Assembly: GCA_002683405.1 (NCBI GenBank)
Contig: NYTH01000054.1
Coordinates: 1 to 64,000, forward strand
Origin: Salinisphaeraceae bacterium
GTDB taxonomy: Bacteria > Pseudomonadota > Gammaproteobacteria > Nevskiales > Salinisphaeraceae
Reading direction: 5' to 3'
Length of the DNA: 64,000 nucleotides
Shown here: in pieces, positions 24,973 to 45,346 of the stretch
How positions within the stretch are numbered: position 1 is the first letter of the stretch
How the letters are laid out: each line of letters begins with the position of its first letter
Position numbers and translations under genes: made by a program
The notes under the pieces: generated by a model
Told to the model about the DNA's origin: nothing
The model's input: the letters and a program-made list of their open reading frames with translations, nothing else
Databases searched by the model: none

Positions 24973-25593
24973 ATCGGCGGATTCTTCGCCAACCCTGATA
25001 TACGCGAGCAAAGCGCGGATCCATCGCGGCTCTCTCTCGGCGAGTTCGATTCCGTCTCCGGCGCTGCGCTCCAACGGCCGACTCCCCAGCCACCCATCGT
25101 CCGCCGCGCTACACGCTGAACGATTCGCGTGGCCAAGCCTGCGTGGTCGGGCGCTGTCATGGTTGGCAATGATGGCGCTGCGCCGGAAACAACCTCTATG
25201 CGCCTACGGAAATGTTTGTCATCCGCCTCAAGTGGTCGATGCCCGGGCACCCCTGCCCAGGCTGGCACCGGATGCGGGTCTTGCTGGCGATCGCACAGAC
25301 GGATTTGCCGCGAGCCTCGCTTGTTGCAGTGCAGCGCGCAAGCCATCCGATTTTTGCAGGCACGACAGACGGGTGCCTCGTTTGATTCTCGGGCCCGGTA
25401 ATTCACTGAAAAATTTACTGAATCGGCTGAAGCTACGCCGCTAGGGTCGCGGGCCTCAGTTGCAACGGTGGGAAAACAGGGAGCAATATCGAGGTGGACT
25501 ATAATGCTGTCAAATCAGAAAACAGCACAATAATGCACTATTGGTTAAGCAATCGGCGTAGACAATCCGGGGTCAATGGAGGAGACGACGACC
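24973..25593. other. Gene-free stretch before the carboxylase operon
   Basis: About 620 bases in which no coding region could be supported. Short open frames occur on both strands but have arginine/proline-biased composition and no recognisable motif. The last 150 bases are AT-richer and hold the putative promoter of the downstream operon. Confidence 0.6.
25500..25542 (+). promoter_or_regulatory. Candidate promoter and BoxR site of the carboxylase operon
   Basis: A perfect TATAAT lies at 25500-25505, although no good -35 is 16-18 bases upstream. TGCACTATT at 25534-25542 is identical to the element in the boxC promoter at 38226-38234; another TGCA is at 25461. Joint control by the BoxR-type regulator is inferred from this shared sequence. 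Confidence 0.4.
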
Positions 25594-27573
25594 ATGTACA
25601 CGGTGGATATAGACACCGGCGGCACCATGACCGACGCCCTGGTCACCGACGGTGAGCGCCAGTTCTCCTTCAAGACGGATACCACGCCGCACGATTTCAC
25701 GGTGTCGTTCGTCAACTGCCTCGATGCGGCGGCACAGGGGTTGGAATACGACTCGACCGATGCGTTTCTCAAGGACGTCTCGATCATCCGCTGGTCCTCG
25801 ACCATCACGACCAACGTGCTGGGCGAGCGGCGCGGATCGCGCGTCGGGCTGCTGGTCACGGCGGGGCAGGAGGAAGCGCTTTACGGTAAAGGCCGCTCCG
25901 AGATCGTCGGCGACCTGATCGAGCCGGACAACGTCATCGGCATGTCGGCCGACCCCGACGCGAAGGAGATTCTCGACAGCGTCAAGAAGCTGCTGGAAAA
26001 CAGCGTGCGTCGGGTCTGCGTGTCGCGACAGGATGCCTTTCCGGACAACTCGGTCGAGCTCAGGATCAAGCATCTGATCGAGGACCAGTATCCCGACCAC
26101 TATCTGGGCTCGGTGCCGGTGCTGTTGGGCAGCGAGATGGCGCAGATCGGGCACGATCAGACCCGGGCCCATTACTCGGTGATGAATGCCTATACCCATA
26201 CGCAGCTGGCGAATTCGCTGTTCAAGGCGGAGGATCTACTGCGCGATCGATTCGGCTACGAGCGGCCGCTCTTTATCGGCCACACGTCTGGCGGTGTGGC
26301 TCGGGTCGGTAAGACCAAGTCGGTGGATACCATCGAGTCCGGCCCCGTGTTCGGCACATTTGGCGGCGCGTTCGTGGCCCGCGAGTACGGTATCGACAAT
26401 GCGGTTTGCTTCGATGTGGGGGGCACGACGTCGAAGGTGTCGATCATCCGCAACGGCGAGCCTGTCTTTCAGCGCGGCGGCCGTCTGATGGGTGTGCCGG
26501 TGCAGACCTCGTTTGCCATGCTGCGTTCCATGGCCATTGGCGGTGGCTCCATCGCGGCCGTGGAGAATGGCCGGGTGACGCTGGGGCCGGAAAGCATGGG
26601 CGCTGCGCCGGGGCCGGCCTGCTATGGCCTGGGCGGGAAGAGCGCCACGCTGACCGACGCCATCCTGGTGCTCGGCTACCTTGATCCGAAGGGATTTCTG
26701 GGCGGCCGCCGCGAGCTTGATGTGGACAAGGCCCGCGAGGCCATCCGGCACACCGTGGCCGAGCCGCTCGGCGTGAGCGTTGAAGCCGCCGCGATTGCCA
26801 TTCGCCAGCGCGCCGCCGATGACCTGGCCGCACTCGTGCGCGACACGCTTGCCGAAGCCGGACTGGGGGTGGCAGGCACGGCCATGTTCACCTTCGGCGG
26901 CAACGGCCCCACGCTGGGCTGCTTCGTGGCCGAGGCGGTCGGCATGACCGATGTCTATGCTTTTGATCTCGGCCCGGTGTTCAGCGCCTTCGGCTCCGCC
27001 ATATCCGACGTAAAGCACGAATTCGAGCGGGGCGTCGGCGAGAAGCTGCAAGGCGGCAACCGCGAGGCCTTCATGGCGGTCGTGAAGGATCTCTATACCC
27101 AGGCCGACCGCGACTTGCGAGGCGAAGGCCTGGATCCTGGCAAAGCGGTGTTCACGGCCGAGCTGGAATTCGGCGAACACGAAGACGTGGCCGGCGCCGT
27201 GCGCTTCGACACCGCAGCCCAGCCCGCGTCCGACTGGCTCGAAAAAGCCATTCAGGCGACCAAGCGTTCCGATATCGATGCCGACCGGTGGCCGGTACTG
27301 CTGGTGCGTCTGACGGTCACCTACTCGCTGGGCGAGCGGCGGCTGGCGCTCGCCGGCAGCAAGACCGACGAGTCCGCGTCTGAATCGCGCAGCATGCTGT
27401 TCGGCGATGCCGAGCCTGCCTCGCTACCGGTGCGGCGCTGGGAAACGATGGGCGAGGGCAGCCGGGCCGACGGGCCCCTCGTCATCAACGGCGCCACTTT
27501 GACCTGTCCGGTACCACCCGGCTGGTCGGTCGGCGTGGACGGTTACGGCAATGCCCATCTGGCGAAAGCCTGA
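25594..27573 (+). CDS. apcA: Acetophenone carboxylase-type alpha subunit (HyuA-like)
   Basis: Predicted ATP-hydrolysing subunit of an aryl-ketone carboxylase, 659 residues, in the hydantoinase A/oxoprolinase family. The N-terminal phosphate-binding motif reads [11 protein letters not shown] (5-15), with T-M-T-D as in acetone/acetophenone carboxylases. A second nucleotide-fold segment [13 protein letters not shown] and the family block [13 protein letters not shown] follow. GGAGGAG precedes the ATG at 25594; an ATG at 25576 is in frame but lies upstream of that site. It is the first gene of a set with the order of apcABCDE of Aromatoleum aromaticum EbN1. A hydantoinase or acetone carboxylase is possible but fits the context less well. 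Confidence 0.75.
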
Positions 27574-27592
27574 TCGCCGGAGGAGGAGAATA

Positions 27593-28000
27593 ATGAGTTA
27601 CGACGCCATCCGATTCACCGAATACCTCGATCTCGATCTCAACGAGGACATGTGGCTCTGTCACGACTGCGGCCACAAGCTGATATCCGCTCGCGAGAAC
27701 TACAAGAAGGGCTGCCTGGTGGCCGACCGAGAGCCGGCCGACGTGCATCCGCCCGTCATTGCCGGCGATTACGGCTTCGTGCCGGACGCCGAGTGGGTCC
27801 ACGTGCTTGAATTCTACTGCCCCGGCTGCAGCCGGCAGATCGAAGTGGAATACCTGCCGCCCGGCCACCCGGTAACGCATGACATCGAGCCGGATATCGA
27901 CTCGCTGAAGCAGCGTCTGGATTCGGGCGAACTGGTCGTGGTTGAAGGCAAGCTGCATCGTGCCGATCGCCTGCAGAATCAGCGGGAGCGCGAGGCATGA
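27593..28000 (+). CDS. apcB: Acetophenone carboxylase-type small zinc subunit
   Basis: A 135-residue protein with two CxxC pairs, LCHDCGHK (about 18-25) and YCPGCSRQ (about 77-84), suggesting a zinc ribbon like the small gamma subunits of acetone and acetophenone carboxylases. ATG at 27593 has GGAGGAGGAG just upstream; the longer frame to 27551 runs into the preceding gene. It starts 19 bp after the first HyuA-like gene and overlaps the second by 4 nt, which ties the three subunits together. Assignment rests on size, cysteines and position. Confidence 0.72.
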   Translation: MSYDAIRFTEYLDLDLNEDMWLCHDCGHKLISARENYKKGCLVADREPADVHPPVIAGDYGFVPDAEWVHVLEFYCPGCSRQIEVEYLPPGHPVTHDIEPDIDSLKQRLDSGELVVVEGKLHRADRLQNQREREA

Positions 28001-30138
28001 AACAGTCCACTCAGCTGAATTCAATCGATATTGATGTCGGTGGCACGTTTACCGATCTGGTACTGACCCGCGACGGTGAAACCCACATCACCAAGTGCCC
28101 GACCACGCCGCATGATCTCTCGGTGGGCTTTCAGGATGCCATCGATTCTGTGGCCGCAAAGCTGGGCACGACGACCGAGGCGCTGCTGCCCGGTATCGAC
28201 GTGGTGCGCTATTCCACCACGGTGGCGCTCAACCGTCTGCTCGAGCGCAAAGGGCCGCGCATTGGCCTGATTACCACGGAGGGTTTCGAGGACACCATTC
28301 TCATCGGTCGCGGCGCGCAGTGGGTGGACGGCCGGCGCGTGGCCGAGGTGCGCAACGTACCGCGGCAGCGCAAGCCGGAACCCCTGATCCATCGCGACAT
28401 GACGGTGGGCGTGCGCGAGCGGGTGGACTCCACCGGCGCTATCGTGCGGCCGCTGGACGAAGACGACGTGCGTATCAAGCTCCGCCAGCTCATGGACCGG
28501 GGTGCTCGCGCCATTGTGGTGGCGCTGATGTGGTCGTTCGAGAATCCGCAGCACGAAAAGCGCGTGCGCCAGATCATCCGCGAGGAATACAAGGAATATC
28601 AGCTCGGCTTCGTGCCCGTGGTGCTGTCGTCGGCTGTGGTGCCCAAAATCGGTGAATACGAGCGGACCATGACGTCCATCCTCGACGCCTATCTGCAGCG
28701 CGACATGCAGGCCGAGATCTCGGCCACCTGGGACAAGATTCGGGATCGCGGCTATCGCGGCGCCTTCCTGATGATTCACAACTCCGGCGGCTGCGGCGAA
28801 ATTTTCAAGACAAGCGCCTCGCGAACCTTCAACGGCGGCCCTGTCGCCGGCCTGATCGGCTCGGCGCATTTCGCCAGACAGCTCGGCTACAAGAACGTGA
28901 TTGCCGGTGACGTGGGCGGCACCTCGTTCGACGTGGCGCTCGTGGTGGAATCGGGCGTTCGCAACTACGACTTCCGGCCGGTCATCGACACCTGGATGGT
29001 CAACATGACCATGATGCAGACGCTGTCCATCGGCGCCGGTGGCGGTTCGATTGCCAGCGTGGACCCGGTGACCAAGCGTATGACCGTTGGCCCGCGCAGT
29101 GCCGGCTCCATGCCCGGCCCGGTCTGCTACAACCAGGGCGGCACCGAGCCCACGGTGACCGACGCCGACGTGGTGCTGGGCTACATCAACCCGGACACCT
29201 ACTACGGCGGGCAGATGAAGCTGTCCCGGCGCAAGGCCGAACGGGCGATCAAGAAGATGATCGCCGAGCCGCTGGGTATCGAGGTGCTCGAGGCCGCTGC
29301 GGCCATCCGTCGAATCATTGACGAGTCCATGGCCTCGGCCATCAAGCGCGAAGTGCATATGCGCGGTTTCCGGCCGGACGACTTCGTGCTGTTCGCCTTC
29401 GGCGGTGCCGGCCCCACGCACGCCGCCGGCTTCAAGGCAGACGTGCCCAAGGCCGTGGTTTTCCCGGCCTCGCCGGTGTTCTGCGCCCTGGGTTCATCGA
29501 TCATGGACTTCGTGCACATGTACGAGCAGTCACGGCGCATGATCTTCATGGAGCCGAAGACCGAAAAAATGGTCGTGGACAAGGACGCCTTCAACCGCAC
29601 CGTGCAGGCCATGATCGACAAGGCCCGCATGGAGCTGCTGGCCGAGGGCCTGCCCGACGAGGACGCCATTTTCTCGCTCGAGCTGGACATGCTCTACGGC
29701 GGCCAGGTGCAGGTGAAACGCACCAGCGTGCCCAAGCTGTTCATCGAAACCGAGGACGACGCACGGGCCATCTACCAGGCCTTCGAGGACGAGATATCCG
29801 ACGCCTACAGCCCGCTGGTGGTGAACCGGCCTGGCGGCTGTTTTCTCGATAATTTCGTGCTGCGCGTCACCGTGCCGACGCACAAGCCGCAGCTTCCGGA
29901 ATTCGACCTTGACGGTGAGGACCCGTCAGCGGCCGCGAACGGTTCACGCGAATGCTACTGGCCCGAAACCAACGAGAGTACGGAGACCGGTTGCTACATA
30001 TTCGAAAAGCTCAAGCCCGGAAATCTGATTCACGGCCCTGCGATCATCGAGGCCGAATTTACCACCATCGTGTTGCCGCCAGGCCAGCGCTTTTCTATCG
30101 ATAAGCACGGGCTCGGGACGATGGAGGCTGAGGCTTAA
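27997..30138 (+). CDS. apcC: Acetophenone carboxylase-type alpha-prime subunit (HyuA-like)
   Basis: Second HyuA-type subunit of the predicted carboxylase, 713 residues. N-terminal SIDIDVGGTFTDLVL is the nucleotide-binding motif; AGDVGGTSFDVALV and RSAGSMPGPVCYNQGGTEPTVTDADVVLG are family blocks, and the C-terminus has the typical HSP70-like end domain. Two different HyuA subunits in one operon are characteristic of five-subunit acetophenone carboxylase, where alpha and alpha-prime each hydrolyse ATP; acetone carboxylase has a single one. The gene overlaps the small subunit gene (ATGA). A 216-bp gap with an inverted repeat follows. Confidence 0.75.
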   Translation: MKQSTQLNSIDIDVGGTFTDLVLTRDGETHITKCPTTPHDLSVGFQDAIDSVAAKLGTTTEALLPGIDVVRYSTTVALNRLLERKGPRIGLITTEGFEDTILIGRGAQWVDGRRVAEVRNVPRQRKPEPLIHRDMTVGVRERVDSTGAIVRPLDEDDVRIKLRQLMDRGARAIVVALMWSFENPQHEKRVRQIIREEYKEYQLGFVPVVLSSAVVPKIGEYERTMTSILDAYLQRDMQAEISATWDKIRDRGYRGAFLMIHNSGGCGEIFKTSASRTFNGGPVAGLIGSAHFARQLGYKNVIAGDVGGTSFDVALVVESGVRNYDFRPVIDTWMVNMTMMQTLSIGAGGGSIASVDPVTKRMTVGPRSAGSMPGPVCYNQGGTEPTVTDADVVLGYINPDTYYGGQMKLSRRKAERAIKKMIAEPLGIEVLEAAAAIRRIIDESMASAIKREVHMRGFRPDDFVLFAFGGAGPTHAAGFKADVPKAVVFPASPVFCALGSSIMDFVHMYEQSRRMIFMEPKTEKMVVDKDAFNRTVQAMIDKARMELLAEGLPDEDAIFSLELDMLYGGQVQVKRTSVPKLFIETEDDARAIYQAFEDEISDAYSPLVVNRPGGCFLDNFVLRVTVPTHKPQLPEFDLDGEDPSAAANGSRECYWPETNESTETGCYIFEKLKPGNLIHGPAIIEAEFTTIVLPPGQRFSIDKHGLGTMEAEA

Positions 30139-30149
30139 GAACGTAAAGC

Positions 30150-30326: not shown

Positions 30327-30354
30327 ATCTTCTCTTCATAGAGAGGCGAGTAAT

Positions 30355-32415
30355 ATGCCCATTCCTACACTTGAACAGAAACTCACCTGGCTGAAACCAT
30401 CCAGGCCCAGCCAGCGGGAGTTGGACCTGGCGGCCGCCATGGATCCGGCGCAGGTGGAAATCGGCTTCCAGCGCACCAACGATATTCTTTCCGAAGCCAT
30501 GGAAGTGTTTCAGCGCACCTGCCGCTGTGCCATGGGCGTGGCGGGCGACTCGCTGGTCTGCATCATGACGGCCGAGGGCGACATGGTGAACGCCTCCTGC
30601 GGCACGTACCTGCATTCGGTTATTCCGCCGCTGATCAGCAAGTTCATCATGGAAACCTATGGCGAGAACCCCGGCATCAAGGATGGTGATCTGTGGTTCG
30701 CCAACGACGCCGTCTACGGCGGCGTGCACAACCCGGATCAGGGGCTGCTCATGCCCGTATTCTTCGAGGGCGAACTCGTCGCCTGGACGGTGGCGCTGGT
30801 GCACACCACCGAAACCGGCGCCATTGAACCCGGCGGCATGCCGGTGTCAGCCACCTCGCGCTTCGAGGAAGGCATGAATCTGCCGCCCACGAAAATCGGC
30901 GAGAACTTCAGGCTGCGCGACGACATCATGAGCATCTTCGAGGCCTTCGGGCTCCGTGCGCCGGCCATGATCACCACGGACATGAAGGCCCGCGCCACCA
31001 CGGCCGACCGCGTGCGCCGACGAATCGTGGAAATTTGCGAGAAGGAGGGAGCCGACTACCTGCGTGGCCTGTTCCGCAACATGCTGCAGCAGGCCGAGGA
31101 CGGCGCCCGCGACCTGATCAGTCTGTGGCCGGACGGCCATTACCGTTGCGTGACCTTTGCCGACGCAGTAGGTCTGCAGCAGGGCCTGGTCCGCAACTGC
31201 TACATGGATATGGAGAAAAAGGGCGACAAGCTCATTGTCGACTTTTCGAAAACCGGGCCCGAAACCGCCAGCTCCTACAACGCCCACCCGCAGGCGGCGA
31301 TTGCGCATTTCTCCAACTACATCTACGAGTACCTGTTCCACGCGCTGCCCATCAACAACGGCACCTTTGCCTCGATCGACTTCAGGTTCGGCAAGAACAC
31401 CTGCCTGAGTCCCGACCCGCGTGCGGCCACCTCGAATTCGGTGATGATTTCCTCCGGGGTGATGAGCGCCAACCACAACTGCTTTGCCAAGGCGATGTTC
31501 TGCACCTCGGACTGGCAGCAGGCGGGTGCATCGCTGGGCAACGGTGGTAACGCGCTGGTGCTGGCCGGCGAGAATCAATGGGAATACGACTTCGCCGACA
31601 TGATGGCCTATTCGATCAACAGCGAAGGCCAGGGCGCGCTGCCCAGCATGGACGGCATGGACTCCTTCGGCTTTCCCTGGGCGCCGTTCGGTCGGGCGCC
31701 GAATACGGAGTTCGTGGAGAACGAGTTTCCGCTGCTCATCCCCATCTCCAACCATCTGGCCGATTCCTGCGGCCACGGCAAGTACCGTGGCGGCGTGGGC
31801 ACGGTGCAGCTGTGGGTGGCGCATCTCAAGCCGCAGGTGGCGCTGATGGCCATTGCCGACAACACCAAGCTGCAGACCCCACAGGGTCTGTTTGGCGGCT
31901 ACGCGCCGTGCACCATTCCGGGCATCGGGGTGCGTAAGGCCAACATTCGCCAGATGATGGGCGAGGGCGATCAGGCCCTGACCATGGACGCCTACGACAT
32001 TCTTTCCAACCGCACGGTGAAGGGTGATTACGAGGTCGAATTCCAGGGTCGCTCGGTGCGCGGCTACGAGGAAGGCGACATCATTACCTTCGCCTTTTCC
32101 ACCGGTGGCTGCGGTTACGGCGACCCGATGGACCGCGACCCCAAGGCCGTGGAGGCCGACGTGCAGAAAGGCACCGTTTCGGTCGAGGCCGCGGAGTTTG
32201 TCTACAAAGTGGCCTGGGACGCGGAAAACCGGCGCATCGACGAGTTGCTGACTCGCGACATGAGAGATGCCGAGCGGGCCGCGCGCCAGCAGCGCGGCAA
32301 GCCATGGGACCAGTTCGAGAAGGAATGGTCGCAGAAGAAGCCACCCGAGGAAGTGCTGGTGCACTACGGCAGCTGGCCGGACGCCGAGTCCAGCGGGGCG
32401 CCCTACCGGGCGTAG
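30355..32415 (+). CDS. apcD: Acetophenone carboxylase-type beta subunit (HyuB-like)
   Basis: Predicted carboxylating subunit, 686 residues, hydantoinase B/oxoprolinase family. The hallmark region NDAVYGGVHNPDQGLLMPVF (about 122-141), followed by a TETGAIEPGGMP block, matches HyuB proteins, as do SNHLADSCGHGKYRGGVGTV and the C-terminal GCGYGDPMDRDP. In the acetophenone carboxylase structure the beta subunit combines activated CO2 with the ketone enolate. Inverted repeats flank the gene on both sides, so its distance from apcC is unusual for subunits of one complex. Confidence 0.76.
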   Translation: MPIPTLEQKLTWLKPSRPSQRELDLAAAMDPAQVEIGFQRTNDILSEAMEVFQRTCRCAMGVAGDSLVCIMTAEGDMVNASCGTYLHSVIPPLISKFIMETYGENPGIKDGDLWFANDAVYGGVHNPDQGLLMPVFFEGELVAWTVALVHTTETGAIEPGGMPVSATSRFEEGMNLPPTKIGENFRLRDDIMSIFEAFGLRAPAMITTDMKARATTADRVRRRIVEICEKEGADYLRGLFRNMLQQAEDGARDLISLWPDGHYRCVTFADAVGLQQGLVRNCYMDMEKKGDKLIVDFSKTGPETASSYNAHPQAAIAHFSNYIYEYLFHALPINNGTFASIDFRFGKNTCLSPDPRAATSNSVMISSGVMSANHNCFAKAMFCTSDWQQAGASLGNGGNALVLAGENQWEYDFADMMAYSINSEGQGALPSMDGMDSFGFPWAPFGRAPNTEFVENEFPLLIPISNHLADSCGHGKYRGGVGTVQLWVAHLKPQVALMAIADNTKLQTPQGLFGGYAPCTIPGIGVRKANIRQMMGEGDQALTMDAYDILSNRTVKGDYEVEFQGRSVRGYEEGDIITFAFSTGGCGYGDPMDRDPKAVEADVQKGTVSVEAAEFVYKVAWDAENRRIDELLTRDMRDAERAARQQRGKPWDQFEKEWSQKKPPEEVLVHYGSWPDAESSGAPYRA

Positions 32416-32440
32416 TGTTTATTGCCGGATAAGAAAGACT

Positions 32441-32611: not shown

Positions 32612-32636
32612 TGCCCTTAGAGGATGAGCTTTTCCT

Positions 32637-33446
32637 ATGAGTGAACCGTGGAGAAAACATCTCGCCGCGCTGGGCAAGGATGCCTCGGCAAGGCCGGCGT
32701 CAAAACCGTTGTTCGCACCCGTCATATTCAGTGGGGCCGCGCAGATCGAGGCGGTCGATGCCCGGGACATGCTTGAAGACGCCACGCTGCTGGGCAAGTG
32801 TCTTAACGGTACCCGCCAGCTGCTGAATCTGGACTGCCTGTATGTCTGCGCGCCCAGCGAGGCCGAGGCAGAGGCCGCCAAAAGTGACAACCCCGCCGCC
32901 CAGCCTCGTCTGGCCGCCGGCATCGAGGTATGCCAACGGTTGTCTGATACCGAGGGCGACCGCCTGGCGCTATTGGCTGGTCTGACGGGCCCGGCGGCGC
33001 TCGCGACCCGGCTCATGGCGGGACAGGACGTCGACGACATCGAGGACTACTACGAGCAGGCCAGCGCCGGCCTGCTGGCGCTGGTCAAGGCGCTGGGTGA
33101 GGCAGGCTGCAGCGGCATCTGGTTTCAGGAAAACGCGGCGCCCGGCGACGCCGACGATGAACGTGAAATCTGGGAAGACAGCCTCACCCCCATCGTCAAC
33201 GTGGCCCGCTTCCACAAGCTGCCCGTCTTCGTGAGCTTTACTGAACACGAGCCGGACGAATGCCCCGCCGGCGTGATTGTCTGCGCGTCCGGTGGCGGCG
33301 ACAGCGCCGCCGGCCTTTTGCCAGCTGACTGGAACACCTGGAACGAACTGCCCGGTGACTGCCAGATCGTGCTCACGCCCGCCGAAGTTGATCCCGCGGT
33401 GAAGCTGGCAGACTTGCGGGAGCAAATCGGGCGAATGGCGGGGTAG
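32637..33446 (+). CDS. apcE: Fifth subunit-like protein of the carboxylase cluster
   Basis: A 269-residue acidic protein at the position of the epsilon subunit gene apcE of EbN1. No strong family motif is visible. The segment LALLAGLTGPAALATRLMAG, followed by an IEDYYEQASAGLLALVKALG helix and then GCSGIWFQENA, recalls uroporphyrinogen-decarboxylase-fold proteins, where a GPx(T/A)LA element precedes a helix and a metal site. That resemblance is by eye only. Epsilon of Apc is needed for full activity in EbN1; a similar role here is inferred from gene order. The predicted mass is lower than the 34 kDa reported there. Confidence 0.5.
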   Translation: MSEPWRKHLAALGKDASARPASKPLFAPVIFSGAAQIEAVDARDMLEDATLLGKCLNGTRQLLNLDCLYVCAPSEAEAEAAKSDNPAAQPRLAAGIEVCQRLSDTEGDRLALLAGLTGPAALATRLMAGQDVDDIEDYYEQASAGLLALVKALGEAGCSGIWFQENAAPGDADDEREIWEDSLTPIVNVARFHKLPVFVSFTEHEPDECPAGVIVCASGGGDSAAGLLPADWNTWNELPGDCQIVLTPAEVDPAVKLADLREQIGRMAG

Positions 33447-33464
33447 CCTGATACCAAGAAAAAA

Positions 33465-33632
33465 GCGCCACAGAGGCACAGAGAGCACAGAGAAGAGGGA
33501 AGATTCTCACCACAAAGAGCACAAAGGTCACAAAGAAGGAAAAGTCATCGATGAGTCTTGCCTTTGTGTGCTTCGTGCCTTTGTGGTTCAGCTTTATTCA
33601 CGCCCTTCTCTGTGTCCTCCGTGCCCCTGTGA
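33465..33632. repeat. Long imperfect inverted repeat, copy 3
   Basis: Left arm GCGCCACAGAGGCACAGAGA then CACCACAAAGAGCACAAAGG; right arm CCTTTGTGTGCTTCGTGCC, TTTGTGGTTC and CTCTGTGTCCTCCGTGCC. This is the most regular copy, with inner arms nearly complementary along their whole length. Confidence 0.9.
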
Positions 33633-33664
33633 TTTTTCATTCCCTAGAGATAAAGCTTTAAATC

Positions 33665-34855
33665 ATGAAGTTTTCCAACGCTTATATCCCCTGCGGGTTC
33701 GCCTGGTCCTCGCCCTTCGTTAAGTGGCAGGGCAGCCTGGCGGACGTATCCAGCATGGATCTGGCCAGCCTGGTGACTCGCGATGCGCTGGATGAGCGTG
33801 GCTACGACCCCGGCCAGCTGGATCGCATGGTGCTCGGCACCACCATTCCGCAGCAGAATTCCTTTTACGCCGTACCCTGGATCGCGGCGCGTATAGGCGC
33901 CGACGGTATTACCGGCCCGCACATTCAGCAGGCCTGCGCGACCTCGCCGGTGTGTCTGGCGGAGGCTGCAACGAATCTGGAATGCGATGCGGCGCAAACC
34001 ATCCTGGTGCTTACGGCGGACCGCACCAGCAACGGGCCCACCGTCATCTATCCGCAGACGCGCAGCATGGGCGGCAGCCCGAGGGTGGAGAACTGGGTGC
34101 TCGACAGCTTTGCCGCCGACCCGAACACCGGCAAGGCCATGATCATGACAGCCGACAATGTGGCCGCCGAAGCGGGCTTCAGCGCTCAAGCCCTGAATGA
34201 CGTCACGCTACTGCGCTGGCAACAATACGAGTCGTCGCTCGCCGACGACCGGGTCTTTCAGAAGCGCTACATGCAGCCGGTGAAAATTCCCGGCCGCAAG
34301 GGTCAGGTCATGCAAATCAGTGCGGACGAGGGTGTGTCTGGCTATTCGGCCGAGGGGCTCGCGGGCCTCAAGCCGGCTGCCGGCGGCGTCGTAACCATGG
34401 GCATGCAGACGCATCCGGCCGACGGCAGCGCCGGGGCAATTGTGTGTAGCGAGGTAAAGGCCCGTGAGCTTTCCAATGGCAATGGTGTGGTCCGCGTGAT
34501 CGCCGCCGGCTTCGGCCGGGCGGCCAAGGCCGAAATGCCCAAGGCGCCGGTACTGGCGGCAGACAAGGCTCTCGCGGCCGCCGGCCTTGGATACGACGAC
34601 CTCAAATTAATCAACACCCATAATCCTTTCGCCGTGAACGACCTCTGGTTTGAAAAGCAGACCGGTTTCGATCTCGAAAAAACCAATCGATACGGCTGCA
34701 GCCTCATCTACGGCCATCCGCAGGGACCAACCGGTCTGCGCTCCATCGCCGAGCTCATCGAAGCCCTGAAAGACGCAGGCGGTGGCCTGGGCATGTTCAC
34801 CGGCTGCGCTGCGGGCGACACCGGCGCGGCGTTGATTATTGAAGTTCTAGACTAG
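33665..34855 (+). CDS. Atypical thiolase, predicted benzoylacetyl-CoA thiolase
   Basis: Predicted to split benzoylacetyl-CoA with CoA into benzoyl-CoA and acetyl-CoA. In the 396-residue protein the nucleophile is Cys91 in QQACATSPV, the general-base His351 lies in YGHPQGPTG and the second Cys381 in FTGCAAGDTG. The usual NEAFA box is replaced by NTHNPFAVND, and the CGSG context of the nucleophile is altered, so it belongs to a divergent thiolase branch. It follows the fifth carboxylase gene after a repeat-filled gap and precedes the CoA ligase. The reaction is inferred from context. Confidence 0.7.
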   Translation: MKFSNAYIPCGFAWSSPFVKWQGSLADVSSMDLASLVTRDALDERGYDPGQLDRMVLGTTIPQQNSFYAVPWIAARIGADGITGPHIQQACATSPVCLAEAATNLECDAAQTILVLTADRTSNGPTVIYPQTRSMGGSPRVENWVLDSFAADPNTGKAMIMTADNVAAEAGFSAQALNDVTLLRWQQYESSLADDRVFQKRYMQPVKIPGRKGQVMQISADEGVSGYSAEGLAGLKPAAGGVVTMGMQTHPADGSAGAIVCSEVKARELSNGNGVVRVIAAGFGRAAKAEMPKAPVLAADKALAAAGLGYDDLKLINTHNPFAVNDLWFEKQTGFDLEKTNRYGCSLIYGHPQGPTGLRSIAELIEALKDAGGGLGMFTGCAAGDTGAALIIEVLD

Positions 34856-34889
34856 GTGCCGCTGGAGGAGTCGAGACAGTTCAAGAATT

Positions 34890-35048
34890 AACCACAGAGG
34901 CGCGGAGGCACAGAGAAGAGGAAAGAGGTTCACCACAAAGGCACGAAGGTCACAAAGAAAGAGGCGTTATTGATGCTTTCACTTCGAGCGCTATGTGGTT
35001 CAAGTCTTTCTGCTTGGTTCTCTGTGTCCTCTGTGCCTCAGCGGCGCT
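34890..35048. repeat. Long imperfect inverted repeat, copy 4
   Basis: Left arm ACCACAGAGGCGCGGAGGCA and CACCACAAAGGCACGAAGGT; right arm CTATGTGGTTCAAG and CTCTGTGTCCTCTGTGCCTC. First of two copies in the 419-bp gap between the thiolase and ligase genes. Confidence 0.87.
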
Positions 35049-35082
35049 TTTTCAAAGGATTGAACTATTGCGAGGGCGTAGT

Positions 35083-35242
35083 TAGAGAGGCGCAAATAAA
35101 TCACCAAGTGATTCTCCGCAAAGGCACGAAGGTCACAAAAAAGAGAGGCAATTCATGCTTTCACTTTGTGCACATTGTGCACTTTGTGGCTTAACACTTT
35201 CTGCCTAGTGCTCTGCGTCCTCTGTGCCTCTGTGGCGCTCTC
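35083..35242. repeat. Long imperfect inverted repeat, copy 5 (left end degraded)
   Basis: Inner part GCAAAGGCACGAAGGTCACA and CACTTTGTGGCTTAACAC, right end CTCTGCGTCCTCTGTGCCTC. The left outer arm is largely lost compared with the other copies. It lies just upstream of the ligase ribosome site. Confidence 0.8.
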
Positions 35243-35274
35243 ATAAAAAGATTATCGCGAACGAGGAGAGAATC

Positions 35275-36830
<1,556 letters not shown>

Positions 36831-36834
<4 letters not shown>

Positions 36835-37640
36835 CCGCCAACGACCATCATTTTCTGAATGTCGACGGCGTACATCTGGAGTGCCGCTGGGCGATCCCGG
36901 CGCAGCCCCGCCCCGACTGTCCGGTGCTGGTGTTGCTGCACGAAGGCCTGGGCTGTGTTGCGGCCTGGAAGGCGTGGCCCGATGAGCTGGCCGAGGCCAG
37001 TGGCTGTCGCGTGTTCGTGTACAGCCGCGCGGGGTACGGCGCGTCTGACCCGGTGAGCCTGCCGCGGCCTATCCGCTATATGCATCACGAGGGGCACGCT
37101 GTGTTGCCAAGGGTGCTGGATGTCGCCGGCATAGACGACGCGGTGCTCGTGGGCCACAGCGATGGCGGCTCCATTGCGATCATCATGGCGGGCGGCGAGC
37201 AGGATTCGCGCGTTCGCGGGCTGGTCCTCCTGGCGGCGCACGTGTTCAACGAGCAGATCTGCGTGGACGCCATTCGGCAGGCCGCCGTGGCCTATGAGCA
37301 GGGCGGCCTGCGCGAAGGGCTGCGCAAATATCACGGCGACAACGTGGACGTGGCCTTCCGGGGCTGGAACCAGGCCTGGCTGCACCCCGATTTCTGGCAC
37401 TGGAACCTCGAGGAATATCTACCGGGGATTGGCGTGCCGGCGCTGATCATGCAGGGCCGGCAGGACCAGTACGGCACGGCCGCCCAGGTCGAAGCGATAG
37501 CGGGACAGGTGGCCGGGCCGACCACCGTCTGCTGGCTCGATGATTGTGGCCACGCACCCCATCGCGAAGCACCCGTGCAGAGCATTGATGCGATCAAGGC
37601 CTTCGTGAATAGCCTGACCGAGGCGGGTAATGGCGCCTGA
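36831..37640 (+). CDS. Alpha/beta-fold hydrolase
   Basis: A 269-residue alpha/beta hydrolase with nucleophile elbow GHSDGGS (about residues 106-112), oxyanion region LHEGLGC near the N-terminus, and a catalytic His in DDCGHAPHREAP near the C-terminus; the acid may be Asp in MQGRQDQYGTA. It overlaps the ligase by 4 nt (ATGA) and the next gene by 11 nt, so it belongs to the same transcript. It could hydrolyse a ring-cleavage lactone, ester or stalled thioester of the pathway. That role is inference. Confidence 0.8.
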
Positions 37641-38181
37641 AAACTGGCAGGGCCTGTCCGACGGCGACCCTTACCACGACCATGCGCATCACGACCCGGA
37701 CCGCGAAGCCGGTCCGTCGCCCGAGAGCCCGCGGTATTCGGAGCGGCCGCTGCCACGCTATCGCTATCTGCCCGGTCGCGATCCGCACCCGGTCGACGAC
37801 GATGAGGGCCATGGCCTGGACGCGCCGGCGATCGTACAGGCCCGCGCGTTCAGCGAAGTGCTGGCCGACTGGCGTTACGCCATCGACCTGTTCAACCACG
37901 GATACTGGTGGGAGGCAGGGCGCTATTTCTCGGCGCTGCGCCACGCGCGGGGCGCGCCCGACAGCATCGAGATACTTCGCCTGGCTGCGGATACCTTGCT
38001 CAAGCGCCGTATGGGCTGGCGGTCCGCCGTGGCGCAAGGGCGAAGCGCGATATTGAAAGCCGGCGCCCGAATGCCGGGGGATGCACCGAACATTGTCGAC
38101 TTCATCGCCTGGACCGAAGCACTGGATCGCTGCCTGCGGCCTGGCGGCAATGATTTTCCTCGTCTGAGGATCCGTGCCTGA
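37630..38181 (+). CDS. DUF309-like small helical protein
   Basis: A 183-residue protein. The first 70 residues are charged and His/Asp/Pro-rich (DPYHDHAHHDPDREAG), possibly disordered or metal-binding. The remainder resembles DUF309: FNHGYWWEAGRYFSALRHA corresponds to the FNxGxYxExHExLE motif but lacks the second acidic and His residues, then a leucine-rich helix and AILKAGARMPGDAPNIVDF. It overlaps the hydrolase gene and ends 97 bp before boxC. Function unknown. Confidence 0.6.
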   Translation: MAPENWQGLSDGDPYHDHAHHDPDREAGPSPESPRYSERPLPRYRYLPGRDPHPVDDDEGHGLDAPAIVQARAFSEVLADWRYAIDLFNHGYWWEAGRYFSALRHARGAPDSIEILRLAADTLLKRRMGWRSAVAQGRSAILKAGARMPGDAPNIVDFIAWTEALDRCLRPGGNDFPRLRIRA

Positions 38182-38191
38182 GAAATTAAAA

Positions 38192-38236
38192 TGCATTAAA
38201 ATGCAGTTGACGAATTGCAGTATATTGCACTATTCT
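38192..38236 (+). promoter_or_regulatory. boxC promoter with TGCA-N6-TGCA operators
   Basis: TTGACG (38207-38212) and TATTCT (38231-38236) are spaced by 18 bases. TGCA occurs at 38192, 38202, 38216 and 38226: two pairs each with a period of 10 bases, one just upstream of the -35 and one inside the spacer. BzdR, the model of this regulator family, binds operators built from TGCA repeats, so repression by the BoxR-type protein encoded at 41618 is the likely function. Confidence 0.62.
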
Positions 38237-38278: not shown

Positions 38279-39985
38279 ATGAACGCAACAGCCATGCAAA
38301 CAAGGCCCGAAGAGGCGCCACAGCAAAAAATGATCGATTTCCGCACGCATCCCGATGCGTACAAGCACTGGCGGCTTGAAATCGAGGCCCCGGTGGCGCG
38401 GCTTATCATGGATACCGACGAGAACAGCGGCCTGTTCGGGGGCTACGAGCTGAAGCTGAATTCCTATGATCTGGGTGTGGACATCGAGTTGGCCGATGCG
38501 ATGCAGCGGCTGCGCTTCGAGCATCCCGAGGTCAAGGTGGTGCAGCTCGAGTCCGGCAAGGAGCGTATGTTCTGCGCAGGCGCGAATATCCGCATGCTCG
38601 GCAAATCGCCGCATGCGCACAAGGTGAATTTCTGCAAGTTCACCAACGAGACCCGCAACGGGATCGAGGACGCCTCCGAGTGTTCCGGCATCAAGAGCAT
38701 GAGTGTGGTCGAGGGCATGGCCGCCGGGGGCGGTTACGAGCTGGCACTGGCCGCCGACTGGATCATCATGGCCGACGACAGCAACGCCGCGGTGGCCCTG
38801 CCCGAAGTGCCGCTGCTGGCCGTCTTGCCGGGGACCGGCGGTCTTACCCGCGTGACCGACAAGCGCCGCGTTCGCCGTGATCTGGCGGACGTGTTCTGCA
38901 CCATCGAGGAAGGCGTAAAGGGTCAGCGCGCGGTCGACTGGAAACTGGTCGATGAGCTCGCTGCCGCATCGAAGATGAAGGACGCGGTGGCGGCTCGCGC
39001 CAGGGATCTGGCCGCACAATCCGACCGGCCCGATGGTGAACAGGGTGTCGAATTCCAGCCGCTGCAGCGCGAGATCGCGGGCGATCGTATCGAGTATCGT
39101 CACGTCACGGCGCAGATCAACCGCAAGCAGCGCACGGTGGAAATCACCATCAAGGCGGTGGCCGAGGAGGCCCCGGCGACCGTAAGCGAGGTGAAGAAAC
39201 AGGGAGATGCGTTCTGGGTGCTCGCCATTACGCGCGAGCTGGACGACCTGCTGCTGCACCTGCGCTGCAACGAGTACGAACTGGGCTCGCTGATCTTCCG
39301 TACCGAGGGTGATCCGGAACTGGTGGCGGCCTACGACAAGCTGCTCAACGACAACGCCGATGACTGGCTGATTCGCGAGATTCGCCACTACTGGAAGCGC
39401 ACCATGAAGCGGCTCGACCTGACGTCGCGCAGCCTGTTTGCCTTCGTCACGCCGGGCAGCTGCTACGTCGGCTTTCTGGCCGAAATCCTGTTCTCGGTGG
39501 ACCGCAGCTACATGCTGGAAGGCATCTTCGAGGAAGCCGACATCGAGCAGGTGCCGGCCACCATCCGCCTCACCGAGTCCAACTTCGGCGCTTACCCCAT
39601 GTGCAACGGCCTCAGCCGTCTGGCCACGCGCTTTCTGGACGACGACGAGCAGATGCGCAAGGTGGAGGCCCTCATGCATCAGGGCCTGGACGCCGAGGCC
39701 GCCAACGACGCGGGCCTGCTGACCTACGCCCTGGACGACATCGACTGGGAAGACGAGGTGCGCATTCTCATCGAGGAACGCGCCAGCTTTTCGCCGGATG
39801 GTCTGACCGGCATGGAGGCCAACTTGCGCTTCGCCGGCCCCGAAACCATGGAAACCAAGATTTTCGGGCGGCTTACGGCCTGGCAGAACTGGATTTTCCA
39901 GCGGCCCAACGCAGTGGCCGAGAAAGGCGCCCTGCAGCTTTACGGTACCGGGCAACGCGCGGATTACGACAAGAAACGCGTGTAG
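38279..39985 (+). CDS. boxC: Benzoyl-CoA-dihydrodiol lyase (2,3-epoxybenzoyl-CoA dihydrolase)
   Basis: Opens the non-aromatic ring of 2,3-epoxybenzoyl-CoA to 3,4-didehydroadipyl-CoA semialdehyde and formate in the aerobic Box pathway. The 568-residue length fits BoxC, an enlarged crotonase. Crotonase-fold motifs are MFCAGANIRML (97-107) and VVEGMAAGGGYELALAADW (143-161), which supply the oxyanion hole for the thioester. A promoter with regulator boxes lies immediately upstream, so boxC begins a transcription unit with boxB even though the ligase operon reads into it. Confidence 0.93.
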   Translation: MNATAMQTRPEEAPQQKMIDFRTHPDAYKHWRLEIEAPVARLIMDTDENSGLFGGYELKLNSYDLGVDIELADAMQRLRFEHPEVKVVQLESGKERMFCAGANIRMLGKSPHAHKVNFCKFTNETRNGIEDASECSGIKSMSVVEGMAAGGGYELALAADWIIMADDSNAAVALPEVPLLAVLPGTGGLTRVTDKRRVRRDLADVFCTIEEGVKGQRAVDWKLVDELAAASKMKDAVAARARDLAAQSDRPDGEQGVEFQPLQREIAGDRIEYRHVTAQINRKQRTVEITIKAVAEEAPATVSEVKKQGDAFWVLAITRELDDLLLHLRCNEYELGSLIFRTEGDPELVAAYDKLLNDNADDWLIREIRHYWKRTMKRLDLTSRSLFAFVTPGSCYVGFLAEILFSVDRSYMLEGIFEEADIEQVPATIRLTESNFGAYPMCNGLSRLATRFLDDDEQMRKVEALMHQGLDAEAANDAGLLTYALDDIDWEDEVRILIEERASFSPDGLTGMEANLRFAGPETMETKIFGRLTAWQNWIFQRPNAVAEKGALQLYGTGQRADYDKKRV

Positions 39986-40107: not shown

Positions 40108-41559
40108 ATGTCTGCAGTACTTGACGCAGTGGATTACGACACAAAGATTCCGAATAATGTGGGTCTGTCCAAGGACCGCAAGCTTCAGCGCGCGCTGGAG
40201 AAATGGCATCCGGGATTCATCGACTGGTGGCTGGACATGGGCCCGGAAGGCTTCATGGACAGCGAGGTCTACCTGCGCACCGCCGTGGGCGTCGACCCCA
40301 AGGGCTGGGCCCAGTTCGGTTTCGTGAAGATGCCGGAATACCGCTGGGGCATTCTCATGGCGCCCAAGGAGGAGGGCCGCGTGATTCCCCACGGCGATCA
40401 CAAGGGCGAGCCCGCCTGGCAGGAAGTGCCCGGTGAGCATCGCGCCCTGCTGCGGCGGCTGATCACCATCCAGGGCGACACCGAGCCGGCTTCCGTCGAG
40501 CAGCAGCGTCTGCTGGGCAAGACCGCGCCGTCGCTCTACGACCTTCGCAACGTCTTCCAGGTGAACGTGGAAGAAGGCCGTCATCTGTGGGCCATGGTCT
40601 ACCTGCTGCAGGCCCACTTCGGACGGGATGGCCGCGAGGAAGCTGACGAGCTGCTCAAACGGCGCTCCGGTAACGACGACACGCCGCGGATTCTGGGTGC
40701 CTTCAACGAAAAGACCGACCACTGGGTGTCGTTCTTCATGTTCACCACCTTTACCGACCGCGACGGCAAGTATCAGCTCGAGTCGCTGGCGCAGTCGGGC
40801 TTCGATCCGCTGGCGCGCACCTGCCGCTTCATGCTGACCGAAGAGGCACACCACATGTTCGTGGGCGAGGATGGCGTCAAGCGCATTATCCAGCGCACCG
40901 TGGACGCCATGAACGAGGCCGGCATCAGCGATCCGACCGACGTGGAAAAGGTGCGTAATCTGGGCGTGATCGCCCTGCCGCTGCTGCAGCGGTTCGTCAA
41001 TTTCCACTTCTCGGTCAGCGCCGACCTGTTCGGCTCCGAGCTGTCGACCAATGCCGCCAACGCGTTTACCGCGGGCGTCAAGGGCCGCTACAAGGAAGCC
41101 GACCTGAAGGACGACCATCAGCTGCACAACGACACCTACCCGGTGCTTGAAATCGTGGACGGCGAGTTCAAGTGGGTGGACGAGCCGGCCCTGCAGTCGC
41201 TCAACGCACGGCTGCGGGACGACTACATATCGGAATGCGAGGGCGTGCTGCGCCGCTGGAACAAGGTCATCGAAAAATCGGGCATTGAGTTCCAGCTGAA
41301 GCTGCCGCACCAGGCCTTCCGCCGTCAGGTGGGCCATTTTGCGGACGTGCACGTCTCCCCGGAAGGCGAGCTGCTATCGGCCGCCGATTGGGCCGCGCAG
41401 GAAGACAGCTATCTGCCCAGCGATGAAGACCACGAGTACGTGACCGCGCTCATGCAGCCGGTCTACGAACCGGGTCAGTTCGCCAACTGGATTGCGCCGG
41501 CCCGGGTGCCCATCGACAAGCAGCCGGGTGACTTCGAGTACGTGAAGATCGAAGGCTGA
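40108..41559 (+). CDS. boxB: Benzoyl-CoA 2,3-epoxidase, oxygenase subunit
   Basis: Di-iron oxygenase that inserts one oxygen atom into benzoyl-CoA. The 483-residue protein holds two ExxH ligand motifs, NVEEGRHLWAM (about 153-163) and LTEEAHHMFVGEDG (about 244-257), typical of the four-helix-bundle carboxylate-bridged di-iron site. N-terminal LEKWHPGFIDWWLDMGPEGF is also conserved in BoxB. GAGAGG precedes the ATG. Its reductase partner BoxA is not encoded in the window. Confidence 0.94.
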   Translation: MSAVLDAVDYDTKIPNNVGLSKDRKLQRALEKWHPGFIDWWLDMGPEGFMDSEVYLRTAVGVDPKGWAQFGFVKMPEYRWGILMAPKEEGRVIPHGDHKGEPAWQEVPGEHRALLRRLITIQGDTEPASVEQQRLLGKTAPSLYDLRNVFQVNVEEGRHLWAMVYLLQAHFGRDGREEADELLKRRSGNDDTPRILGAFNEKTDHWVSFFMFTTFTDRDGKYQLESLAQSGFDPLARTCRFMLTEEAHHMFVGEDGVKRIIQRTVDAMNEAGISDPTDVEKVRNLGVIALPLLQRFVNFHFSVSADLFGSELSTNAANAFTAGVKGRYKEADLKDDHQLHNDTYPVLEIVDGEFKWVDEPALQSLNARLRDDYISECEGVLRRWNKVIEKSGIEFQLKLPHQAFRRQVGHFADVHVSPEGELLSAADWAAQEDSYLPSDEDHEYVTALMQPVYEPGQFANWIAPARVPIDKQPGDFEYVKIEG

Positions 41560-41617
41560 CCGACCGCGGGGCCGCGGCAACGTTGTTCGCGGCCCCCGTT
41601 TTCCCGACAATGGCACG

Positions 41618-42535
41618 ATGAACGACACTCCCAAGCCCGAAACCGTGGACGACCTGCTGGTCGACATGAGCAAGCGCGTGCGCGGCCTGCGCGCTGCGCG
41701 GGGCATGAGTCGCAAGGACCTGTCGAAGCACGCCGATATTTCGGAGCGTTATTTGGCCCAGCTGGAAAGCGGGCAGGCCAACGCGTCCCTGGGTGTGCTC
41801 TGGCGCCTGGCTGATGCCATGGGCGTTGACCTGATCAACCTCCTGGTCAATGACGAACAGGTGCCCCGCACCAATGCGCCGCTGTGGCGCCTACTGCAGT
41901 CGCTGTCCGCCAAGGATCAGTTGCGGGCCTACGAGATTCTGGTCCGCCGGTTTGGCAGCCGAGACAACGCAGCCCGGCACGGCGTGGCGCTGGTCGGTCT
42001 GCGGGGGGCGGGCAAGACAACGCTGGGCCGGCAGCTTGCCGCCGATGCCGGTGTCGATTTCGTCCGCCTGGGCGAGGTGGTGGAATCGGTGGGCGGCATG
42101 GAGTTGTGGGAAATGTTCTCGCTGGCCGGGCAGAAAACCTATCGGCGGGCCGAACGCGAAGCCCTGCAAACCGTTATTAACCGCCCCGAGCCGGTGGTGC
42201 TCGAAGCCGGCGGGAGCATCGTGTCCGAACCGGCTACATTCAACCTGCTGCTGGCCAATTTCTATACCGTCTGGCTGCGGGCCGCGCCGCACGAGCACAT
42301 GGAGCGCGTGCTGGGGCAGGGCGATACGCGCCCCATGGAGGCCAGCGAGGCCGCCATGGCCGACCTCAAACGCATTCTCAGCGAACGAGAATCGGACTAT
42401 GGCCGTGCTGACGCCGTGGTGAACACGTCCGAACGGGGTATCGATGACTGCCTCACCGAGCTCAGGCGCAAGGCGGCGCGGCATCTCGAGCCGGCCGGCT
42501 CGTTCACCGGACAGGCGAACAGCGGCGGCCGCTGA
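41618..42535 (+). CDS. boxR: BzdR/BoxR-type regulator, XRE HTH + shikimate-kinase-like domain
   Basis: Predicted benzoyl-CoA-responsive repressor, 305 residues. N-terminal XRE-type helix-turn-helix (about 17-78; SRKDLSKHADISERYLAQLE) is followed by a shikimate-kinase-like domain with Walker A GLRGAGKTT (127-135), FVRLGEVVE and VVLEAGGSIV. This combination is diagnostic of the BzdR/BoxR subfamily, where benzoyl-CoA binds the kinase-like domain. It lies 58 bp after boxB. Likely targets are the TGCA repeats at the boxC promoter and the matching element upstream of the carboxylase operon. Confidence 0.92.
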   Translation: MNDTPKPETVDDLLVDMSKRVRGLRAARGMSRKDLSKHADISERYLAQLESGQANASLGVLWRLADAMGVDLINLLVNDEQVPRTNAPLWRLLQSLSAKDQLRAYEILVRRFGSRDNAARHGVALVGLRGAGKTTLGRQLAADAGVDFVRLGEVVESVGGMELWEMFSLAGQKTYRRAEREALQTVINRPEPVVLEAGGSIVSEPATFNLLLANFYTVWLRAAPHEHMERVLGQGDTRPMEASEAAMADLKRILSERESDYGRADAVVNTSERGIDDCLTELRRKAARHLEPAGSFTGQANSGGR

Positions 42536-42694
42536 CTGTGCCGCGGGGCGCTGCTGCGTGCAGACGCCTGGCGCAGCGGGTTCCGGGGTATCAAGAGGCC
42601 TGCCACCGCAGCCAGCCGGCGCAATCAGACAGGCTTGTCCCGCAGCCTTGCGGAGCACCGTGGGCGAGAGGCTCGACGGCCTCGCGACCGGCGT

Positions 42695-43162
42695 CTAGAT
42701 AATTCCCGCGCTGACCGCCGCCGCCACGTACAGCCCGAGTTCCCGCGCCTGACCAATGAAGTCATCACGGAACTCACCGCGACAGAGCAGCGGGTCCTGC
42801 ACGGCCCGCCAGCGCAGGCCGGTCACGATGGTCTCGATGGCACGAATGGTACCGGCGCCGTCGTTGCCGGCGCGCACGTAAAGCCCGTACGGCAGGCCCT
42901 GGGTTTCCTCCAGCACCGGGTAGTACACCCGGTCGAAGAAATCCTTCATGGCACCCGCCATGTAGGCGAGATTCTCGGTGGTGCCCAGAATGATCGCGTC
43001 GCAGCCCAGCACGTCCTCGGGCGTGGCGTCGAGTGGAGGCACATGGCGGATCGCGACCTCTTCGACTTCGGGATCCCGGGCCCCCTCCAGCACGGCATCG
43101 CGCAGCTTCCGCGTATTGGGGGAGGGGGCGTGATCGACCAGCAGAATCTTTTTTTCACTCAT
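42695..43162 (-). CDS. Flavodoxin-fold NAD(P)H-dependent oxidoreductase
   Basis: A 155-residue flavodoxin/NADPH-dependent FMN reductase-type protein. Start MSEKKILLVDHAPSPNTRKL is the FMN phosphate-binding strand-loop; ILGTTENLAYMAGAMKDFFDR matches the FMN-ring loop and helix of this family. It is convergent with boxR and close to tRNA-Leu. It could recycle flavin, but a role in the Box electron supply is not supported beyond proximity. Confidence 0.78.
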   Translation of the reverse strand: MSEKKILLVDHAPSPNTRKLRDAVLEGARDPEVEEVAIRHVPPLDATPEDVLGCDAIILGTTENLAYMAGAMKDFFDRVYYPVLEETQGLPYGLYVRAGNDGAGTIRAIETIVTGLRWRAVQDPLLCRGEFRDDFIGQARELGLYVAAAVSAGII

Positions 43163-43258
43163 GCCCGGATGCTACTGCAAATTCCTGCTGGCCTTCATGT
43201 ATAATCGCGCGCTCTTCAGGGTCCGACGCCAGTTGATCGGACCCGGCAAAGCGTCATT

Positions 43259-43346
43259 GCGCCGGTGGCGGAACTGGTAGACGCGCTAGGTTGAGGGCCT
43301 AGTGGGCGAATAGCCCTTGGGAGTTCGAGTCTCCCCCGGCGCACCA
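43259..43346 (+). tRNA. tRNA-Leu (anticodon GAG)
   Basis: An 88-nt class II tRNA. Acceptor GCGCCGG pairs with CCGGCGC; anticodon stem CTAGG / CCTAG with loop TTGAGGG, giving anticodon GAG; variable arm TGGGCGAATAGCCCT; T arm GGGAGTTCGAGTCTCCC; encoded CCA. It forms the right edge of the catabolic region that starts after tRNA-Leu(UAG). Confidence 0.96.
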
Positions 43347-43552
43347 TTCCCGCTTTGCCTTCAGCCGTTTCGAGCAGCGACGCCCGCACGTGCCGTAACG
43401 GCCGGTAGCCAGGCTTCCCCCGTGGCATACACCAACGGGTAGCGTGACCCTGTCGCGATCTACGCTAGAATAATTTCAGTCTGGCGGGCATGCGCCGCTG
43501 TTGATGGCCGTGCCGAAAACTCAAAATCAATACGACCGGAGAGAGATTGACC

Positions 43553-45346
<1,794 letters not shown>

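Follow-up and report, generated by a model that had tools for sequence, protein, structure and literature searches.

BoxR and BzdR are described as binding TGCA repeats (PMC6449761). Across Betaproteobacteria the main BoxR motif is ATGCACTATAGTGCAT, nearly always present in several copies (PMC6449761), and BoxR has been termed benzoyl-CoA-dependent (PMC4424350). For BzdR, the operator regions OR2 and OR3 consist of TGCA(N6)TGCA, and benzoyl-CoA releases the protein (PMC6678401). We analyzed a 64-kb stretch of DNA from a Salinisphaeraceae bacterium (GenBank assembly GCA_002683405.1, contig NYTH01000054.1, positions 1 to 64,000; hereafter the window), in which two TGCA-N6-TGCA palindromes lie on the promoter of boxC, boxC is followed by boxB and boxR, and acetophenone (apc) genes lie upstream. 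Judged from the sequence, the two palindromes are very probably BoxR operators that would block the boxC promoter until benzoyl-CoA appears. The boxC operator belongs to a known motif and a known switch and is not a new kind.

The BoxR/box systems of Azoarcus sp. CIB and Betaproteobacteria share with the window the regulator family, the target genes, and a motif with an AT-rich middle that occurs at several sites (PMC6449761, PMC4424350). They differ in spacing, as the window sites are 24 bp apart whereas those in the described systems are mainly 3 to 5 helical turns apart. They differ also in the apc genes, which are a candidate target only in the window; the word acetophenone has 0 occurrences in the accessible text of PMC6449761. 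The Azoarcus promoter PN, bound by BzdR, has in common with the window the repressor family, two TGCA(N6)TGCA elements, an operator element between -35 and -10, and an inducer, benzoyl-CoA, that is predicted for the window. PN drives the anaerobic bzd genes, comprises three operator regions, and has an FNR-type activator, whereas the window promoter serves the aerobic boxCB genes and has two sites (PMC6678401). An earlier note on this DNA had described BzdR operators as TGCA repeats, in agreement with PMC6449761 and PMC6678401, and made no mention of the motif being on record for BoxR across Betaproteobacteria.

For the apc genes, the described counterpart is the apc-bal operon of Aromatoleum aromaticum with AdiRS, which is of the same catabolic type (apcABCDE) as that of the window (PMC4729919). 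A two-component system is predicted there to control acetophenone degradation and its induction (PMC4729919), whereas the window has BoxR-like sites, and its genome holds nothing closely related to the response regulator situated near apcA in related genomes. We found no paper joining BoxR with acetophenone, or acetophenone carboxylase with boxC or benzoyl-CoA epoxidase, in a search beyond whose reach most subscription journals lay.

Probable operators on the boxC promoter

The boxC promoter and the genes behind it comprise the following features.

38192..38205, no strand assigned: predicted BoxR operator 1, TGCA-TTAAAA-TGCA, ending 1 base short of the -35 hexamer
38207..38236, plus strand: boxC core promoter, sigma-70-like, TTGACG-N18-TATTCT, a consensus match only (9/12)
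38216..38229, no strand assigned: predicted BoxR operator 2, TGCA-GTATAT-TGCA, wholly within the -35/-10 spacer
38279..39985, plus strand: boxC, 2,3-epoxybenzoyl-CoA dihydrolase (TIGR03222, 884.5 bits, cut-off 712.3)
40108..41559, plus strand: boxB, benzoyl-CoA 2,3-epoxidase subunit (TIGR03225, 855.7 bits, cut-off 499.1)
41618..42535, plus strand: boxR, repressor with an XRE-type helix-turn-helix (HTH) and a shikimate-kinase-like domain (NF006015, 346 bits, cut-off 204, residues 6-290)

The earlier note had reported four TGCA words, with a 10-bp period in each pair, on TTGACG-N18-TATTCT. We find the same arrangement at the same positions: the words start at 38192, 38202, 38216, and 38226, and the hexamers TTGACG (38207-38212) and TATTCT (38231-38236) are separated by an 18-bp spacer. 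Because TGCA is self-complementary, each pair is both a direct and an inverted repeat, giving two palindromes, in each of which the half-sites are 10 bp apart. These are the only exact TGCA-N6-TGCA sites in the window and, in the whole 3.72-Mb genome, the sole pair of such sites less than 500 bp apart. Two such sites upstream of boxC arose in 1 of 20,000 dinucleotide shuffles of a 250-bp region and likewise in 1 of 20,000 of a 100-bp region.

We scored the 64 kb with a matrix made from 42 distinct sites of related boxC loci, with the window excluded. Operator 1 (23.8 bits, match start 38191) and operator 2 (20.3 bits, 38215) ranked first and second, inside the range of the relatives' own sites (12.0-28.7, median 24.8). 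The matrix has A-T at its center (89% each) and A and T flanks (61% each), and it shares its core with the published ATGCACTATAGTGCAT motif (PMC6449761).

Conservation of the motif at other boxC genes

Within the same order, boxC was found above cut-off in 10 of 85 genomes, the window's genome included, and a scan of a larger collection with the BoxC alignment supplied 80 further loci, the best 80 of 569. With the window left out and two loci dropped for too little upstream sequence (L083 and L106), 87 loci remained, in each of which we searched the 250 bp that precede the BoxC match.

An exact TGCA-N6-TGCA was present in 58 of the 87 loci (9/9 in the order of the window, 49/78 elsewhere), compared with a mean of 0.9 and a maximum of 5 over 300 rounds of shuffling. 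The earlier note had said that TGCA pairs lacking at orthologous boxC genes would speak against its reading, and these counts show them to be widely kept. In a control slice of equal length inside boxC, none of the 87 loci had an exact match and 3 had one with at most one mismatch. When all 256 four-letter words were compared at spacings of 0 to 20, direct or inverted, TGCA-N6-TGCA was the commonest, followed by its own shifted versions and then by an unrelated repeat in 18 loci.

The sites also lie where a repressor would be expected to act. A promoter-like sequence matching at least 9/12 was present in 28 of the 59 site-bearing loci (window included), and the best one overlapped a site in 18 of these 28; randomly shifted sites gave 6.0 overlaps on average over 500 rounds (maximum 12). 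In four relatives from the order (L001-L003 and L006), one site lies between TTGACA and a -10-like hexamer; 14 bp beyond it, a second one covers the -10. The window keeps the spacer site and has its other site 24 bp upstream, adjoining the -35. These positions are consistent with promoter occlusion and with the arrangement for BzdR, whose OR1 palindrome sits between -35 and -10 (PMC6678401).

Co-occurrence of the motif with BoxR

The fetched DNA encoded BoxR at 66 other loci (67 with that of the window). We searched the genomes of the 21 loci that had sufficient upstream sequence and no BoxR nearby; 11 had a match above cut-off elsewhere and 10 had none, the genome-wide match for L062 spanning the kinase half only. 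Exact sites were present in 57 of 77 loci with BoxR versus 1 of 10 without it (Fisher p = 1.5e-4), and sites with at most one mismatch in 71 of 77 versus 1 of 10 (p = 9e-8). Relatedness among the loci was corrected only by thinning Bradyrhizobium to one of 23, after which the counts were 37/55 versus 1/10 for exact sites (p = 0.001) and 49/55 versus 1/10 with at most one mismatch (p = 1.4e-6).

The window's own BoxR matches the curated BoxR/BzdR model NF006015 over its full length and is encoded on the same strand as boxC and boxB. PF01381 (HTH_3, residues 24-72) is followed by PF01202 (SKI, 129-278), so the domain pair that had been ascribed to the regulator at 41618 is there in the expected order. 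The HTH motif SERYLAQLE matches the consensus of the 67 BoxR sequences, the window's among them. The 58-bp gap before boxR (41560-41617) holds no TGCA pair with at most one mismatch, and the 20 best matrix matches all lie outside it, so we read boxR as a member of the boxC operon, unless it has a promoter that goes unseen.

Proposed mechanism and its weak points

By analogy with the Azoarcus work, the window BoxR would bind these palindromes and be released by benzoyl-CoA. BoxR dimers on 38192-38205 and 38216-38229 would cover the flank of the -35 as well as the -35/-10 spacer and would thereby bar RNA polymerase from the boxC promoter. As benzoyl-CoA, the substrate of the pathway, accumulates, it would bind the shikimate-kinase-like domain, and BoxR would let go of the DNA. 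With BoxR off, boxC and boxB would be transcribed, and boxR as well by read-through, giving negative feedback. We infer the oligomeric state of BoxR, its ligand, and the read-through into boxR.

Several observations weigh against control of boxC by BoxR in this way. The boxC promoter is recognized from a 9/12 consensus match only, and the 24-bp offset of the two sites is not shared by any other locus that has two exact sites (14 bp at 8 loci; single loci at 10, 40, 51, 53, 65, 105, and 115 bp). Twenty of the 77 loci with BoxR have no exact site, and six of them (L033, L052, L091, L107, L110, and L111) lack even a site with one mismatch, while L055 has a site and no BoxR above cut-off in its genome. 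Nine of the ten genomes without BoxR are metagenome-assembled by title, with completeness not stated, which makes the absence of BoxR from them uncertain. The window BoxR is just 34-43% identical to the 66 other aligned BoxR sequences and has Ala at a Gly (GxGN) kept in more than 90% of them.

Alternatives must also be weighed. BoxR might bind as predicted while the operon is driven mainly from elsewhere, for example by read-through from an apc promoter 13 kb upstream, which would make the operator minor. The named genes from apcA to boxR are all on one strand and the gap before boxC is merely 97 bp, yet that gap holds a promoter-like sequence, and the 58 relatives have the motif before boxC even though their upstream genes differ in the position of boxR. 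We consider this arrangement unlikely. Less likely still is another TGCA-recognizing regulator, such as a XylS/BenR-type activator (TGCA-N6-GGNTA). The sites of such activators do contain TGCA (PMC6678401, PMC6449761), but the GGNTA second half is in neither window pair, on which ground we rejected a site of this type; moreover, the motif of the relatives is symmetric and accompanies BoxR, and a location over the core promoter suits a repressor. Chance in an AT-rich promoter is barely credible, for although at least two exact sites anywhere in 64 kb are not unusual (40/100 shuffles) and the genome has 35 such places (17 for a reversed-pattern control), the upstream shuffles, the matrix ranking, the recurrence of the motif in relatives, and its tie to BoxR led us to reject it. 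Repression of the boxC promoter by BoxR thus remains the preferred reading.

Candidate BoxR sites before apcA

The third and fourth ranks of the matrix scan, which are absent from the earlier note, fall at the other end of the catabolic gene block.

25495..25508, no strand assigned: weak second candidate for a BoxR operator before apcA, TGGA-CTATAA-TGCT, 8.1 bits, 2 mismatches, rank 4
25507..25534, plus strand: apcA promoter-like sequence CTGTCA-N16-AATAAT, a consensus match only (9/12)
25524..25537, no strand assigned: candidate BoxR operator before apcA, AGCA-CAATAA-TGCA, 14.25 bits, 1 mismatch, rank 3
25576..27573, plus strand: apcA, acetophenone carboxylase alpha (NF042960, 1025.6 bits, cut-off 1250, best family by far)
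27593..28000, plus strand: apcB, acetophenone carboxylase beta (NF042974, 218.8 bits, cut-off 250)
27997..30138, plus strand: apcC (NF042975, 1300.3 bits, cut-off 1500)
30355..32415, plus strand: apcD (NF042976, 1255.7 bits, cut-off 1500)
32637..37640, plus strand: genes that might take benzoylacetate on to benzoyl-CoA, namely an apcE-like gene (146 bits, cut-off 450) and those for a thiolase, a benzoate-CoA-ligase family protein, and an alpha/beta hydrolase

For apcA through apcE (25576-33446), an Apc family was the best match for all five genes, each scoring below its cut-off. The apcA open reading frame was taken from the first ATG; a likely alternative is the ATG at 25594. The two matches (starts 25523 and 25494) lie within about 85 bp upstream of this frame; the fifth match, at 38225 (6.8 bits), overlaps operator 2.

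The sites at 25524 and 25495 may allow BoxR to repress the apc operon too, a prediction from the sequence that is much less certain than that for boxC. The -10-like AATAAT lies inside the better candidate site, paralleling the boxC promoter of L009, where TTGACG-17-AATAAT has its -10 inside ATGCACAATAATGCAT. The promoter-like sequence is itself overlapped by a 10/12 match on the opposite strand. In shuffles of 200 bp, 14.2 bits was reached in 32 of 10,000, and together with a second site of 8.1 bits in 2 of 10,000.

Other results argue against this extension to apc. Neither candidate keeps both TGCA words intact, and none of four apcA orthologues (L114, L115, L120, and L121; 59-63% identity) has such a site upstream, the best matrix scores across these whole loci being below 2 bits. 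Five orthologues were available at 58-63% identity, of which the fifth (L122 in G032) breaks off at the end of its contig. Nine less similar homologues (34-45% identity) were also scored, in loci L116-L119, L123-L126, L127, and L128 (ten loci; L118 in G316, L119 in G224). A 17.5-bit site lies about 1 kb upstream of the apcA homologue in L116 (45% identity) and an 8.3-bit one about 0.25 kb upstream in L123 (37%); the remaining loci have no match above 3.6 bits. We sought more orthologues and found none new at E <= 1e-180 in sets of 36 and 398 genomes and none at 1e-100 in 72,556 plasmid records. None appeared at 1e-100 in 49 of the 80 boxC genomes found, a set without a known positive in which an empty answer is uninformative.

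We also sampled 11 stretches around other pattern matches in the genome. Seven of them, at 14.2-18.1 bits, roughly match or exceed the apcA site, which counts further against the extension. With at least seven other sites about as good or better, one site scoring about 14 bits lacks specificity by itself, and the apcA case therefore rests on location and on the second site. Ten open reading frames near six of the sampled matches included no obvious aromatic-degradation gene. One match, an 18.1-bit TGCA-N6-TGCA (L141:3688-3703, G000:C9), lies just upstream of a nitronate-monooxygenase-like gene and is possibly a further BoxR target or a product of chance. The sequence GGCACAATTTTGCA is identical at G000:C22:61087, C33:73, and C52:60239, perhaps as copies within a repeated element.

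A response regulator near apcA in related genomes

In the same-order genome G013, a LuxR-type response regulator is divergent from apcA, 1.7 kb away (L130:3879-4580). Its closest relatives, at 52-57% identity, are separated from apcA by 7.2 kb in G031, 1.9 kb in G224, and 1.8 kb in G316, and in G032, where apcA is at a contig end, the closest relative is on another contig. The best match in the genome of the window is 42% identical and also on another contig, resembling the second-best paralogues elsewhere (39-44%). Among the five genomes in which the region upstream of apcA can be seen, BoxR-like sites occur solely in the one without a nearby response regulator. This correlation has a single positive case, and of the other four genomes BoxR is known in G013 and G031 only.

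The absence of the regulator together with the presence of the sites suggests that apc passed to BoxR. In such a history the response regulator would be missing near apc, BoxR sites would have arisen before apcA, and one repressor and benzoyl-CoA would now control both pathways, with positive feedback. We regard this as possible, though on balance we lean slightly against it.

The apc-box gene block and its surroundings

An acetophenone to benzoylacetate to benzoyl-CoA route is described in PMC4729919. By analogy, the apc, thiolase, ligase, and hydrolase genes could convert acetophenone via benzoylacetate to benzoyl-CoA, which BoxB and BoxC would then attack. Four genomes of the order have their apc and box genes on a single contig, with a separation of about 11 kb in the window and of 16-49 kb in G013:C9, G031:C2, and G032:C37. 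The apc-box neighborhood is a recurrent acetophenone-to-benzoyl-CoA linkage.

Genes for tRNA-Leu flank the block at 24667-24753 and 43259-43346. As possible island borders, 24601-25600 and 42501-44000 share no direct repeat of at least 12 bases. After the first tRNA-Leu, at 24760-24970, a unit containing GCGGGAAAT and TCTAATACTCGCA recurs two to three times, as judged by eye. Between the hydrolase gene and boxC, an open reading frame of 183 amino acids (37630-38181) has no NCBIfam or Pfam match. A weak terminator-like site (38129-38148) lies just upstream of the boxC promoter; it was the only one in the terminator scan, a yield below the shuffle mean of 4.2. One further feature lies in the gap between boxB and boxR.

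41565..41598, plus strand: GC-rich hairpin followed by GTTTT, a possible attenuator on weak evidence

This hairpin folds at -25 kcal/mol, but shuffled sequences fold nearly as well (z = -0.62), and it is not among the terminator-like sites of the terminator scan.

No BoxA, the benzoyl-CoA epoxidase reductase, was found above cut-off in the genome of the window (best 78.7 bits versus 459.2). BoxB may be served by another reductase, or boxA may fall in an assembly gap. In G013 the genes boxC, boxB, and boxA are consecutive (L129:10316-11659). The window BoxC is 57-65% identical to the 80 collection loci by best tblastn segment, highest to Sedimenticola, and 53-56% identical by alignment to BoxC of its own order. 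These identities, which come from two differing measures, hint at transfer.

Implications for box and apc regulation

The BoxR motif known from Betaproteobacteria also holds in the organism of the window and in its order, where all nine other loci carry it, and the scan extends it to many boxC promoters outside the order, mostly, to judge by the names, of Alphaproteobacteria and some Gammaproteobacteria. Across these loci the boxC operator motif tracks the presence of its regulator.

One question that PMC6449761 leaves open is whether an operon that has newly arrived can come under a regulator already in place. The proposed extension to apc lies near this question and bears also on whether operons keep their own regulators. 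If that extension is true, this locus would give a concrete example in which control of a catabolic operon has passed to a repressor from another family. Benzoyl-CoA, the end product of the apc pathway and the substrate of the box pathway, would signal to both, and a peripheral pathway would have been rewired to the sensor of a central intermediate.
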